In this document: positions 14,734-40,812 of the stretch, in pieces
Layout of the letters: every line of letters begins with the position of its first letter
Numbering within the stretch: the stretch's first letter is position 1
Source: an uncultured Clostridia bacterium
Lineage (GTDB): Bacteria; Bacillota; Clostridia; Oscillospirales; Ruminococcaceae
NCBI GenBank assembly: GCA_947624675.1
Contig: CANQLI010000011.1
Coordinates: forward strand, 1-49,496
Reading direction: 5' to 3'
Length of the DNA stretch: 49,496 nucleotides
Program-made: the position numbers and the translations under genes
Notes under the pieces: model-generated
Told to the model about the DNA's origin: nothing
Database searches by the model: none
The model's input: the letters and a program-made list of their open reading frames with translations, nothing else

Positions 14734-14843
14734 CCCCTCTACTAACAGCGCAAAAACAGGAAAAAATGTACGCAAACGTACATTCTTCATAAAATAAATT
14801 ATGTTTTGTAACAAAATGTTTACAATATTCATACTTTATTCAT
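14734..14843 (-). repeat. 110-bp structured intergenic element, copy A
   Basis: Aligns without gaps to 40703-40812 in the opposite orientation, with about 14 mismatches by eye. Read on the minus strand it has a dyad TTTTGTTACAAAA (within 14803-14817), a fully conserved block with hairpin ATGTACGTTTGCGTACAT and TTTTTT (about 14761-14783), and a conserved tail. Copy A follows the gdhA terminator and precedes the Cys-rich gene by about 150 bases. The remainder of this 343-base gap is AT-rich and holds no gene. Confidence 0.85.
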
Positions 14844-14865
14844 ATTTTGCCGCGATTTTTAATGC

Positions 14866-14899
14866 AAAAAAAGAACACAGTAAATCTTCTTTACTGTGT
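14866..14899 (-). terminator. gdhA terminator
   Basis: Ten-base stem ACACAGTAAA/TTTACTGTGT with a five-base loop, followed on the minus strand by a U-run (14866-14872). Confidence 0.9.
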
Positions 14900-14926
14900 C
14901 CTTTAAGCTGTTCTTTTAAGCTGTTT

Positions 14927-16279
14927 TTAGTACGCTACGCCCTGCCACTTCATAGCATCTGCTACCTTTAAGAAGCCTGCGATGTTTGCGCCCATAACAA
15001 GGTTGCCCTCGTGTCCGTACTCCTTAGAAGCATTGTATGAATTGTGGAAAATGTTTATCATTATGTTCTTAAGCTTAGCGTCTACTTCATCAAATGTCCA
15101 AGAAAGTCTTTCTGAATTCTGGCTCATTTCAAGTCCCGAAGTTGCAACACCGCCTGCGTTTGCAGCCTTTGCAGGTCCGAACATTACTCCTGCCTCAAGG
15201 AATTTCTCTATTGCCTCTGGTGTAGAAGGCATATTTGCGCCCTCTGCAACAGCAATCACGCCGTTCTTGATAAGAGTGTCGGCAGCATCTCCGTCAAGCT
15301 CATTCTGTGTAGCGCACGGAAGAGCAATATCACAAGGGATTGTCCAGATTCCCTTACAGCCCTCATGGTACTCAGCACCCTCAACTCTGTTGCAATACTC
15401 CTTGATCCTTCCTCTTTCAACCTCTTTGATCTGCTTAACAACATCAAGGTTGATTCCATTCTTATCGTAAATATATCCGTTTGAGTCGGAAAGCGCAACT
15501 ACCTTTCCTCCGAGCTGAGTTGCCTTCTGAGTTGCATAAATAGCAACATTTCCCGAACCGGAAATAACAACTGTCTTTCCGTTAAAGCTCTCATTCTTCA
15601 TACACTTGAGCATCTCGTCGGTAAAGTAGCAAAGACCGTATCCGGTAGCCTCGGTTCTTGCGAGAGAGCCGCCGTAGCTAAGTCCCTTTCCTGTCAGCAC
15701 GCCTGTGAACTCATTTCTAAGTCTCTTGTACTGACCAAACATATATCCTATCTCTCTTGCACCTGTTCCTATATCTCCTGCGGGAACATCGGTATCAGCG
15801 CCGATGTGCTTTGAAAGCTCTGTCATAAAGCTCTGGCAAAATCTCATTACCTCTCCGTCGGACTTGCCCTTTGGATCAAAGTCAGAGCCGCCTTTTCCGC
15901 CGCCCATAGGAAGTCCGGTAAGGCTGTTTTTAAATATCTGCTCAAAGCCCAAGAACTTGATAACTGATGCACATACAGACGGATGAAGTCTCAAGCCGCC
16001 CTTATACGGTCCGATAGCCGAATTGAACTGACAGCGGAAGCCTCTGTTTACCTGAACATTTCCGTTATCGTCTACCCACGATACTCTGAACTGAATAAAT
16101 CTTTCAGGCTCGACTATTCTGTCGATAATTCCGTTCGTTTCATACGACTTGTCCTTTTCAACAACAGGCTCAAAGCTCTCCAATACCTCTTTTACCGCCT
16201 GCAAGAATTCGGTCTCCCCAGGGTTTCTTGCGCACACCTTTTCATATACCTTTGCAAGGTACTCGTTTTTAAACGCCAT
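14927..16279 (-). CDS. gdhA: glutamate dehydrogenase, NADP type
   Basis: 450 aa, hexameric GDH class. It interconverts 2-oxoglutarate plus ammonium and glutamate and is the main ammonium entry route in gut Ruminococcaceae. Visible motifs: [13 protein letters not shown], catalytic Lys in [17 protein letters not shown] (about 123-139), the [19 protein letters not shown] loop, and the Rossmann GSGNVAIYA. The [18 protein letters not shown] segment is usual in NADP-linked enzymes. It is a single gene between its own promoter (16359-16387) and a terminator. It is well conserved and full length. Confidence 0.97.
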
Positions 16280-16358
16280 TGTTTAAAACCTCCATATCTT
16301 ATAAATTATGAGCAAGCACAGCCGTTTATGGCAAATTCTGCACTTTACACCAAAAATA

Positions 16359-16387
16359 ATCATAACACAAATATATGTTTTTGGCAA
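16359..16387 (-). promoter_or_regulatory. gdhA promoter
   Basis: Minus strand TTGCCA (16382-16387), 17 bases, TATGAT (16359-16364), about 75 bases upstream of the gdhA start. Confidence 0.75.
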
Positions 16388-16394
16388 GAAATTT

Positions 16395-16425
16395 TGCAGG
16401 AAAATTTTTATTTCCTGCATTTTTT
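16395..16425 (+). terminator. hairpin with U-tract upstream of gdhA promoter
   Basis: TGCAGGAAA (16395-16403) and TTTCCTGCA (16411-16419) with TTTTTT after it, on the plus strand. No plus-strand gene ends here. It may insulate pheB from antisense reading, or be a regulatory dyad just upstream of the gdhA -35 box. Confidence 0.5.
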
Positions 16426-16488
16426 ACATTTTGTTAACACTTATAAACTCAAATCAGGGTCAAAGCCCCGATGTTGACAGATTTCTTC

Positions 16489-16517
16489 TTGACTTTTTTC
16501 TTTAAATATGTTATAGT
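16489..16517 (+). promoter_or_regulatory. promoter of pheB-hom-thrB
   Basis: TTGACT (16489-16494), 17 bases, TATAGT (16512-16517), 42 bases before the pheB ATG. Confidence 0.8.
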
Positions 16518-16558
16518 TGTATCTGTCGCAAAAACATCTGTATACAGGAGGTGGACTT

Positions 16559-17014
16559 ATGAACGATAACGACAGCGGTATTCAAAAGCTTGTTGTGGTC
16601 AACACTAAGGTCCTTCCGGATATTATTTTAAAGGTTTTAGAGGCTAAAAAGCTCAAGGCCTGCGGAGAGGTCAAAAGCTCTTCTGACGCTTGCCGAAGGG
16701 TGGGAATTTCAAGAAGCGCATACTATAAATACAAAGACTGTGTTTTCGGTTATGAAGAAAAAACACAGAACAAGCTTCTCTCTCTTTATCTTTTGCTAAA
16801 GGATGAAAAAGGCGTGCTGTCCTCGATCATATCATCGCTTTATGAGATAGGTGCAAACATTATTACCATAAATCAGAATATCCCGGTGGATTCGGTGGCA
16901 AGTGTGACTATCTCAGTAAGAATCGAAAGTGATGAGATTTCATCCTCCGATGTGAAAAGAAAGCTTCTTAACACAAGCGGTGTAGTAGATGTCAAGATAA
17001 TTTCAGGAGAATAA
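16559..17014 (+). CDS. pheB: ACT domain protein PheB (UPF0735)
   Basis: 151 aa. An N-terminal HTH-like region (SSSDACRRVGISRSAYYKYKD, about 41-61) is followed by an ACT domain (KGVLSSIISSLYEIGANIIT). The ATG at 16559 has CAGGAGGTGG before it. An upstream in-frame start would lie in the -10/leader region and was rejected. ACT domains bind amino acids, and this family sits next to hom in many Firmicutes and may sense phenylalanine or threonine. It precedes hom by 30 bases in an operon. The molecular function is not established. Confidence 0.85.
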   Translation: MNDNDSGIQKLVVVNTKVLPDIILKVLEAKKLKACGEVKSSSDACRRVGISRSAYYKYKDCVFGYEEKTQNKLLSLYLLLKDEKGVLSSIISSLYEIGANIITINQNIPVDSVASVTISVRIESDEISSSDVKRKLLNTSGVVDVKIISGE

Positions 17015-39651: not shown

Positions 39652-39690
39652 TCACTACACCAACCCTTGCGGTCACATACCAAATAAAAC

Positions 39691-40131
39691 TCAGAAGTCA
39701 AGCTCTTCCATAGCCTTTAGCGCACACTCGTCATCAAACACGGCGCTTGCCTGATCCCATCTTTCCTTATCCCAGATCTCTGCCCTGTCTGTGACTCCGG
39801 CAACGACAATGTCCTTAGAAAGGCTCGCAAACTTCCTTAAGTCCTGCGGTATCAGTATCCTTCCCTGTTTATCCGCTTCGACCTCGGTTGCTCCCGCCAT
39901 AAAGTGTCTTTGTATCTGTCTTCCCTTTGAAATAGGAAGACCTCTTATCTTTTCGGCAATAAGCTCAAAGTCCTCAAGCGAATACACAAACAAGCATCCG
40001 TCGACGCCTCTTGTGACGATGAACCTCTCGCCGATTATCTCTCTTAACTTTGTAGGAAAGCTCATTCTTCCCTTTGCGTCCATAGACGGATAGAATGTTC
40101 CCATTAAATTTGTTGTCGGCAAGCCGTTCAC
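39691..40131 (-). CDS. mraZ: transcriptional regulator MraZ
   Basis: 146 aa, AbrB-like fold in two halves: FYPSMDAKGRMSFPTKLREI and VEADKQGRILIPQDLRKF carry the conserved DXXGR signatures. Binds its own promoter region and represses the dcw operon. First gene of the cluster; AGGGAGGTG precedes the start. Repeated AGTGGT boxes upstream may be its sites. Confidence 0.96.
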   Translation of the reverse strand: MNGLPTTNLMGTFYPSMDAKGRMSFPTKLREIIGERFIVTRGVDGCLFVYSLEDFELIAEKIRGLPISKGRQIQRHFMAGATEVEADKQGRILIPQDLRKFASLSKDIVVAGVTDRAEIWDKERWDQASAVFDDECALKAMEELDF

Positions 40132-40152
40132 CTCCCTATCAAGCGGTTTGTT

Positions 40153-40196
40153 TCACTTTTGGGAATTATCACCACTTTTTCGCACAATTAACCACT
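40153..40196 (-). promoter_or_regulatory. possible MraZ operator boxes
   Basis: On the minus strand AGTGGT occurs at 40191-40196 and 40171-40176, exactly 20 bases apart (two helical turns), with AGTGA again at 40153-40157. Regular repeats before mraZ are what MraZ, an oligomeric repressor, binds. By analogy only. Confidence 0.5.
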
Positions 40197-40204
40197 GCAA
40201 GTTA

Positions 40205-40233
40205 ATTATACACCATAATCAAGGGAAATGCAA
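40205..40233 (-). promoter_or_regulatory. dcw promoter, proximal
   Basis: Minus strand TTGCAT (40228-40233), 17 bases, TATAAT (40205-40210), about 65 bases from the mraZ start, just upstream of the AGTGGT boxes. Confidence 0.75.
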
Positions 40234-40469
40234 GCCCAAAGACAAAAAAACTTGTAGACAAATTGACAAATTAAAACAAGTTAATTTATACAATATATCC
40301 AAATTCAATGAAAAATTTACAGAAAGTTTACAAACTGACCTTTCTCATATCTTGTCCACTAATAAAGGACAAAAGCTGTTGATGCCGACTGCTGTTAAAA
40401 CATACTGATCACAATATATTGTATTTACTTTGATCTTAATAAAAGGCTGTATTTTATACTGCCCAATAT

Positions 40470-40498
40470 ATTTTACCACAACATATAGTATGTGTCAA
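40470..40498 (-). promoter_or_regulatory. dcw promoter, distal
   Basis: Minus strand TTGACA (40493-40498), 17 bases, TAAAAT (40470-40475). Would give a leader of about 330 bases before mraZ. No gene is seen within that AT-rich leader. Confidence 0.65.
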
Positions 40499-40640
40499 CA
40501 TAAAACAATCTAAATAAACCTTGTTTTACTTACCTTAATTTAACATATTCATATCAAGTCGGCTACTAAATATAGTTTTAAAAGCTATGTCGGCAATCAA
40601 ATAAGGACTATGTCCGTTATTAAGCAGCGATTAATAATAA

Positions 40641-40695
40641 CTGCCGCTTGTATTTATCCACTCAGGACACCGTGTGAATACAAATATAGCGGCAG
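40641..40695. repeat. long imperfect hairpin next to copy B
   Basis: CTGCCGCT (40641-40648) and AGCGGCAG (40688-40695) close a stem that continues through TGTATTTATCCAC/GTGTGAATACA, with a loop of about ten bases. It ends eight bases before the repeated 110-bp element. The rest of the 40499-40861 gap has no gene. Confidence 0.75.
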
Positions 40696-40702
40696 CTGTT
40701 TT

Positions 40703-40812
40703 ATGAACAAATTATGAATATTGTAAACATTTCGTTACGAAATATGAGTTATTTTGTGAAAAATGTACGTTTGCGTACATTTTTTCCTGATTTTGCACTA
40801 TTAGTGGAGGGC
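40703..40812 (+). repeat. 110-bp structured intergenic element, copy B
   Basis: Inverted partner of 14734-14843. Dyad ATTTCGTTACGAAAT at 40729-40743, whose copy-A equivalent is ATTTTGTTACAAAAC, so a C-G pair became T-A on both sides. A terminator-like hairpin AATGTACG/CGTACATT with loop TTTG (40762-40781) and T-run are identical in both copies. Possible -35 TTGTAA (40721) and -10 TATGAG flank the dyad. Confidence 0.85.

Follow-up and report, generated by a model that had tools for sequence, protein, structure and literature searches.

Results

The DNA analyzed here (the window, 49,496 nucleotides) comprises positions 1 to 49,496 of contig CANQLI010000011.1 from an uncultured Clostridia bacterium of the Ruminococcaceae, whose draft assembly (GCA_947624675.1) amounts to 2.08 Mb in 49 contigs. 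It contains two copies of a 110-bp noncoding element, at 14734–14843 and 40703–40812, which are oppositely oriented and give a gapless alignment with exactly 14 mismatches, in keeping with the approximate count of a first-pass annotation of this DNA. As a whole promoter/operator-like unit, copy 1 spans 14733–14844 on the minus strand and reads towards the gene for a Cys-rich protein of 285 amino acids (aa) (13726–14583, minus strand), to which it stands in promoter position, 158 nt upstream; an NCBIfam search with this protein gave no match. Copy 2 spans 40702–40813 on the plus strand, between valS and mraZ, and points into the 3′ end of valS (40862–43480, minus strand), which opposes it. The annotation had described these neighbors correctly, and likewise a minus-strand terminator beside each copy. 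Adjoining copy 2 is the valS terminator, a hairpin with a T-tract (40818–40852, minus strand, limits set by eye; fold of −24.1 kcal/mol for the stretch), and on the upstream side of copy 1 is that of gdhA, recognized by eye only. At its downstream end, copy 1 has a T-rich tract that forms no hairpin (fold −0.5).

Read in the direction of copy 2, the element opens with an upstream A/T-rich array of ~48 bp (40702–40749, plus strand, in copy 2; 14797–14844, minus strand, in copy 1, with TATGAA/TGTAAA-type words), followed by an AT box TATTTTAT that is near-invariant in the 64 copies described below (14789–14796, minus strand, in copy 1; TATTTTGT at 40750–40757, plus strand, in copy 2). Then comes a palindrome, AATGTACG-TTTG-CGTACATT with a T-tract, which reads AATGTACGTTTGCGTACATT in both window copies (14765–14784, minus strand, and 40762–40781, plus strand), is near-invariant in all 64 copies, and is proposed to be an operator. 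A spacer of ~12 bp separates it from a −10-like region, CTGTTAGT in copy 1 (14741–14748, minus strand) or CTATTAGT in copy 2 (40798–40805, plus strand), after which purines follow. In position, the palindrome matches the GTTGCA-N8-TGCAAC of relatives, and the −10-like region their GATAAGTG/TATTAGTG. Beyond the right end of the element lies an A-rich tract, with A in 51–55 of the 64 copies at each of four successive positions.

The annotation had stated that a lack of further copies would speak against it; many were found, and the resemblance between copies far exceeds what chance would give. When copy 1 was compared with its own genome by blastn, 40 matches including itself were returned, the others with 88–98% identity (best E 1.2e-48). 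The covariance-model search of genome and relatives that the annotation had proposed, in which 150 candidates were scored per genome, yielded 64 copies in this genome and more in relatives. A pattern search with the core AATGTACGTTTGCGTRCA, allowing up to two mismatches, also gave 64 sites (60 exact and 4 with one mismatch; split 36 to 28 between the strands), exactly one in each of the 64 fetched loci, while control patterns for this core had 0 matches in the genome.

Two of the annotation's ideas, a compensatory base change and a small RNA, found no support in the 64 copies. A C-G to T-A exchange in a dyad, written ATTTCGTTACGAAAT in the array of copy 2, had been taken as compensatory and as a sign of selection for pairing or symmetry. 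Both spellings are present, but the inference fails because the pair concerned (offsets −29/−23) does not covary: it is T-A in 34 copies, T-G in 5, C-A in 5, C-G in 1, and something else in 19, and the "compensated" C-G state occurs in copy 2 only. Compensatory evolution of this dyad was therefore rejected. The second hairpin, described as identical in both copies, is indeed so and is near-invariant in all 64. A small RNA or structured RNA family, the other idea, gained no support: the element has no Rfam match at gathering score (near copy 1, there is only a chance-level match), RNAalifold on the element alignment returned a 6-pair consensus with a covariation term of −0.13, and the palindrome pairs are almost invariant in the 64 copies, without compensating. 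The last point also bears on whether the element is a bidirectional intrinsic terminator built from an A-tract, a stem, and a T-tract. The AAAAAGTTGCA...TGCAACTTTTT stretch does resemble a terminator, and in the window copies it folds into a hairpin. Still, we consider this function very improbable given noncompensating pairs, arms whose sequence is kept across genera with inner positions often unpaired (GTTGCATTAAAACGTGCAAC), and a near-fixed distance upstream of the −10-like hexamer.

Conservation is unequal along the element. Among the 40 close copies, a set defined by whole-element blastn matches and not chosen on the core, the mean pairwise difference is lowest for the palindrome (0.003), followed by the AT box and the T-tract (0.013 each), and is higher for the −10-like region (0.062), the array (0.135), and the spacer (0.149). 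In the same order, the values for the 24 divergent copies, which were found with the model so that their core conservation is partly ascertained, are 0.025, 0.020, 0.000, 0.212, 0.303, and 0.417. The palindrome of this dispersed repeat thus looks to be under selection.

One copy in this genome (L083) has its −10-like region 111 nt before TerS, the first gene of a phage-like cluster that lies between ispD and an ABC transporter (L171:542-7257; contig C3, ~43.3–50.1 kb). A TerS-like gene (118 aa) comes first, then TerL, portal, protease-like, and major capsid genes, with two or more further genes after these. TerL (PF04466 and PF03237; PHROG terminase, E 4.6e-49), portal (PHROG, E 2e-139), and major capsid (PF25209; PHROG, E 3.9e-53) have profile matches. 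The TerS, protease, and last two genes, which neither Pfam nor PHROGs named, are assigned by position and, for TerS, also by similarity seen by eye. When 10 proteins encoded beside the cluster here and in the relative G001 (L175) were tested, nine matched host families and one had no match. A gene for a DUF815 ATPase (Pfam) follows the cluster, and no integrase or repressor was apparent among the remaining neighboring open reading frames (ORFs), which were read by eye only. The cluster occupies the same place in G001 and, judging by ispD, in a second relative, G011, and of the genus loci checked, only those of these three genomes have the cluster beside ispD. When this genome is compared with G001, dN/dS is 0.143 for TerS, 0.092 for TerL, 0.113 for the protease, and 0.107 for the capsid, with dS saturated. 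Two other copies precede genes of phage type, namely a 100-aa protein (PHROG 4105) with a holin (PF16079) behind L098 and a CHAP-SH3 lysin behind L099. Some 13 kb from the cluster, a gene on the minus strand (L171:18880-19161) encodes a 93-aa Sigma70_r4-like protein, a possible regulator.

This layout is close to that of FpGTA, a gene transfer agent (GTA) of Faecalibacterium (Nat Commun 2026, PMC12946183), which, in the sections of that paper available to us, has TerS, TerL, portal, scaffold, and capsid in a 10.5-kb operon and tail and lysis genes in a separate 5.5-kb operon. In both cases, a small TerS-TerL-portal-capsid operon is combined with tail or lysis genes elsewhere, in Gram-positive gut anaerobes. 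We call the present cluster GTA-like on account of this layout, the cluster being known here from its genes alone.

A profile of TerL, made from five sequences, has one match each, without stops, in 14 of 15 genomes of the genus, and it matches 26 of 197 genomes in the order. Counted at E ≤1e-60, it matches 79 of 148 genomes of the family (68 of 123 genera), the match being single in 71 of the 79 and the best match spanning 300 or more of the 414 positions, free of stops, in 73. By these counts, the head and packaging genes remain intact across many species at one chromosomal site each, as is expected of a GTA. All 14 TerL loci of the genus have a palindrome and, ~18–20 nt downstream of it, a −10-like hexamer, both upstream of TerS. 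In 11 of them, the palindrome is GTTGCA-N8-TGCAAC (≤2 mismatches), the ancestral form, and in three (this genome, G001, and G011) it is derived; GATAAGTGAAAGG, TATAAGTGAAGGG, or similar follows. The upstream A/T array is found at the TerS promoters of these last three genomes and is absent at the other genus loci, and we dropped it as a general part of the promoter. In two further species, G006 and G008, the palindrome lies beside the DUF815 ATPase gene (L120 and L121); the TerL cluster is kept there in G006, and the TerL profile finds no match in G008.

In other genera of the host family, a palindrome GTTGCACG-N4-CGTGCAAC is followed by a −10-like hexamer and, at several loci, by phage genes, namely terminase (L148, L152, and L167), holin (L162, PF05105), and tail-type genes. 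The exact sequence AGTTGCA-N8-TGCAACT occurs at 46 sites in 22 of the 148 family genomes, with 0 control matches in any, and 19 of these 22 genomes have a TerL match. Fourteen of the 46 sites lie 510–715 bp before the TerL match. Among the other 32, 20 were examined, and 13 of these are followed by genes for lysins (CHAP, amidase, M23), BppU/tail-fiber proteins, Mu-F-like minor-head proteins, or DUF4417 proteins (11 above the Pfam cutoff, one by a PHROG tail-fiber match, and one, L230, by a subthreshold tail match). DUF4417 genes lie directly behind the palindrome promoter in several genera (L220, L224, L226, and L231 by Pfam, L147 by eye), and the one at L220 matches a PHROG labeled "nuclease"; DUF4417 is reported to be fused to ParB-CTPase folds in phages in the portion of a 2025 paper available to us (PMC12704722). 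Four scans of viral collections gave three loci in all, from one scan, and in at least two of the three, the palindrome is upstream of phage genes recognized by eye (terminase in L169 and an SSB gene in L168). The motif therefore also occurs in contigs classed as viral, and a phage origin is possible; we set aside a free-standing phage promoter.

Since the palindrome and the −10-like sequence stand before the TerS cluster and before lysin, holin, tail, and minor-head genes, and since the layout is like that of FpGTA, we read the element as the promoter/operator of a GTA-like regulon, an identity that these sequence comparisons make very likely. The annotation had listed a chromosomal protein-binding site among its options, and this one is supported by the sequence-specific palindrome, the conservation of the core, and the fixed place before GTA-like genes.

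How did such a unit come to be present 64 times? A blastn search of 40 relatives with copy 1 gave 10 matches in G001 and 2 in G011. With the covariance model at E ≤1, there were 18 in G001 and 9 in G011 (5 of these below 0.001), and four further genus members had five matches in total (E 0.004–0.43). The AGTTGCA-N8-TGCAACT palindrome, one mismatch allowed, has 3–6 matches in 11 of the 12 other genomes of the genus and 0 in one, counts that include chance since 5 of the 15 genus genomes also show one control match. Because 64 derived copies here and 18 in G001 stand against 3–6 in most of the genus, we conclude that amplification of the unit took place in this lineage. Two other genera (G074 and G079) may have undergone dispersal on a smaller scale. 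Orthologous G001 cores are mostly of the TGYACG..CGTGCAA type with variants, and two are mixed forms (L031 and L033), the core of the present genome being the derived one. Both window copies look like recent additions when compared with relatives: within 1 kb behind valS, there is no copy in four of four, and behind gdhA, there is none within 1 kb in three of four, the fourth, G001, having one 938 nt away.

Such differences between sister species are what might be expected of an inert or selfish noncoding repeat that copied the GTA promoter and spread, with a preference for T-tracts behind genes. The A-rich tract after the right end and the copies away from phage genes in G074 and G079 would fit as well. 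Weighing on the other side are the unequal conservation within the element, the 12 loci of this genome that have a copy at orthologous places in G001 or G011 (judged by similarity of one or both flanks), and the lack of terminal inverted repeats or target-site duplications by eye in the 64 copies aligned with their flanks, for which no formal search was made. On balance, we find a selfish origin of the dispersed copies fairly unlikely. The annotation's suggestion of a mobile noncoding repeat holds for the repeat, with its 64 copies; mobility is possible, with no such ends apparent by eye. The inspection by eye likewise gave no sign of a miniature inverted-repeat transposable element (MITE) or other repeat derived from an insertion sequence (IS), a reading that we set aside provisionally.

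The copies are overwhelmingly intergenic. With a simple ORF caller (≥75 aa), 62 of 64 are clear of any called ORF; the two exceptions overlap one by 16 bp and by 130 bp, respectively, and the ORF in the second case is doubtful. The left and right flanking genes are oriented minus-minus in 24 cases, minus-plus in 15, plus-minus in 13, and plus-plus in 11, with no left gene called in one. The sense copies L018, L096, L101, and L087 lie 140–340 nt before DHH-family (recJ-like), UvrD helicase, ruvC, and dnaA genes. It could be argued that the dispersed copies expand the regulon by bringing host genes under the GTA activator, given that the first right-hand gene is in sense for 26 of 64, these four included, and that copy 1 lies before the Cys-rich gene. 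We regard this as unlikely, for it fits only these 26, and the other 38 are directed at the 3′ end of a gene that runs towards them; within tandem gene pairs, moreover, the element runs against transcription in 24 cases vs. 11 (p 0.04), a bias of 22 vs. 3 in the first 40 copies.

Finally, the copies are evenly spread. The 47 intercopy gaps on contigs have a mean of 25.6 kb, a minimum of 5,349 bp, and a coefficient of variation of 0.63, and none is shorter than 5 kb compared with 8.1 expected (over-dispersed, p ~1e-4, against 20,000 simulations of uniform placement over whole contigs of the draft assembly, genic DNA included). This spacing raises the question of whether the dispersed copies are pac-like packaging-initiation or DNA-entry sites for the GTA, derived from a sequence that initially served near TerS and then spread at regular intervals for packaging of the whole chromosome. 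A palindrome more conserved than the −10-like region, the adjacency of the element to TerS, and a derived core common to the 64 copies, 60 exactly, would all agree with this idea. Against it, the element also fronts lysin, holin, and tail genes far from TerS, and FpGTA, according to the available sections of its description (PMC12946183), packages seemingly random fragments of host DNA (8.4–8.9 kb) with a TerS that has no obvious DNA-binding domain. A further argument came from TerS itself. Both TerS proteins of the genus that were tested (L182 and L188) lack the N-terminal region and a Terminase_2 match, which all eight of the full-length TerS tested in other genera possess (L183, L186, L190, L191, L195, L197, L200, and L202). 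This is not unique, since three short TerS from other genera (L189, L205, and L209) also lack the N-terminal region, two having a weak C-terminal match only and one no match, which weakens the argument. We left our estimate for packaging sites as it was because the other arguments against them stand, and we judge them improbable. The same low standing applies to a related proposal, in which the 64 even copies would form a chromosome-wide address system of the GTA, where its regulator or a nuclease of the regulon would act during induction to start packaging or DNA entry; were it true, the particle would sample the whole chromosome evenly and not at random.

Elsewhere in the window, we noted a gene for a FISUMP-domain protein (46658–48310, minus strand) and a tRNA gene (45741–45813).

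Discussion

Our explanation as a whole is that a dispersed, GTA-like regulon from a domesticated phage has the 110-bp element as its promoter/operator unit, and that this unit multiplied along the chromosome. A putative activator, acting as a dimer, would bind the palindrome, the center of which is ~40 bp upstream of the expected start and overlaps the −35 region, and the bound activator would recruit or help RNA polymerase at the −10-like hexamer. The unit would then have multiplied in this lineage to 64 chromosomal copies, most of them not before GTA-like genes, and the extra copies would be kept as sites for the same activator, mainly titrating it and so setting a threshold for a process that ends in cell lysis. 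Some side transcription of the DNA flanking dispersed copies is possible. Titration is favored because it fits conservation of the binding site without use as a promoter, yet as the main role of the dispersed copies we put it forward tentatively, as falling somewhat short of probable. For the activator, a CRP/FNR-type class II protein was considered and dropped, the only lead being the half-site spacing, with no candidate protein found.

A number of observations count against this explanation. Most dispersed copies have no GTA-like gene downstream, their even spacing is not something that titration predicts, and the core conservation of the divergent copies is, as said, partly a product of how they were found. 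With TATTAG or TGTTAG as its sequence, the −10-like hexamer resembles TATAAT poorly, and its second base is G in 33 of 64 copies. In the wider family and order, the association is incomplete: out of 29 TerS loci of the family that were long enough for the test, 12 (that of the present genome included) have the GTTGCA-type or derived palindrome. The search of the order added 28 loci (25 from other families and 3 from this one) at which it was not found; a single match with two mismatches (L244) is out of place there, and other dyads occur. Seven of the 20 examined exact sites have no phage-type gene behind them, although three of these lie inside genes and are probably due to chance and one runs off its contig. 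Several of the remaining 12 sites, 10 of which are in G074 and G079, precede no phage gene among those of the 12 that were fetched, and the same is true of several looser matches in these two genomes (9 in G074 and 11 in G079; L128–L144). Taking everything into account, we consider the explanation as a whole likely, and the promoter/operator identity at its heart more secure than that.

How does this compare with known systems? In FpGTA, the cluster most like ours, no promoter, operator, or repeat is described in the available sections of the report, and the words "promoter" and "motif" occur 0 times in its main text (PMC12946183). In the CcGTA of Caulobacter, which is controlled by GafY/GafZ and IHF, an activator site likewise lies upstream of the core promoter of the GTA cluster, and, apart from the promoters of gafYZ and the GTA, GafY binds at 18 places on the chromosome (PMC11150451, available in part). 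GafY sets a precedent in that a GTA regulator there has sites scattered over the chromosome, although the likeness is one of description only and the available part of that study mentions no dispersed repeat family. Repeats such as REP/BIME, BOX, and MITEs are short, intergenic, present in dozens of copies, and palindromic in part. The element shares all of these traits, but it differs in also being the promoter of identifiable genes and in having no IS-like ends by eye. In the literature searched, parts of which were available to us, we found no description of a GTA operator or of dispersed copies of one.

FpGTA-like agents entered the literature in 2026, when they were first described in gut bacteria without mention of a promoter or motif (PMC12946183). 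Taken together, the present findings supply a DNA signature of their control, by which the regulon can be looked for in genomes. They also point to a lineage in which this control sequence became a chromosome-wide, evenly spaced repeat, through which the entire chromosome may be linked to machinery for sharing genes.

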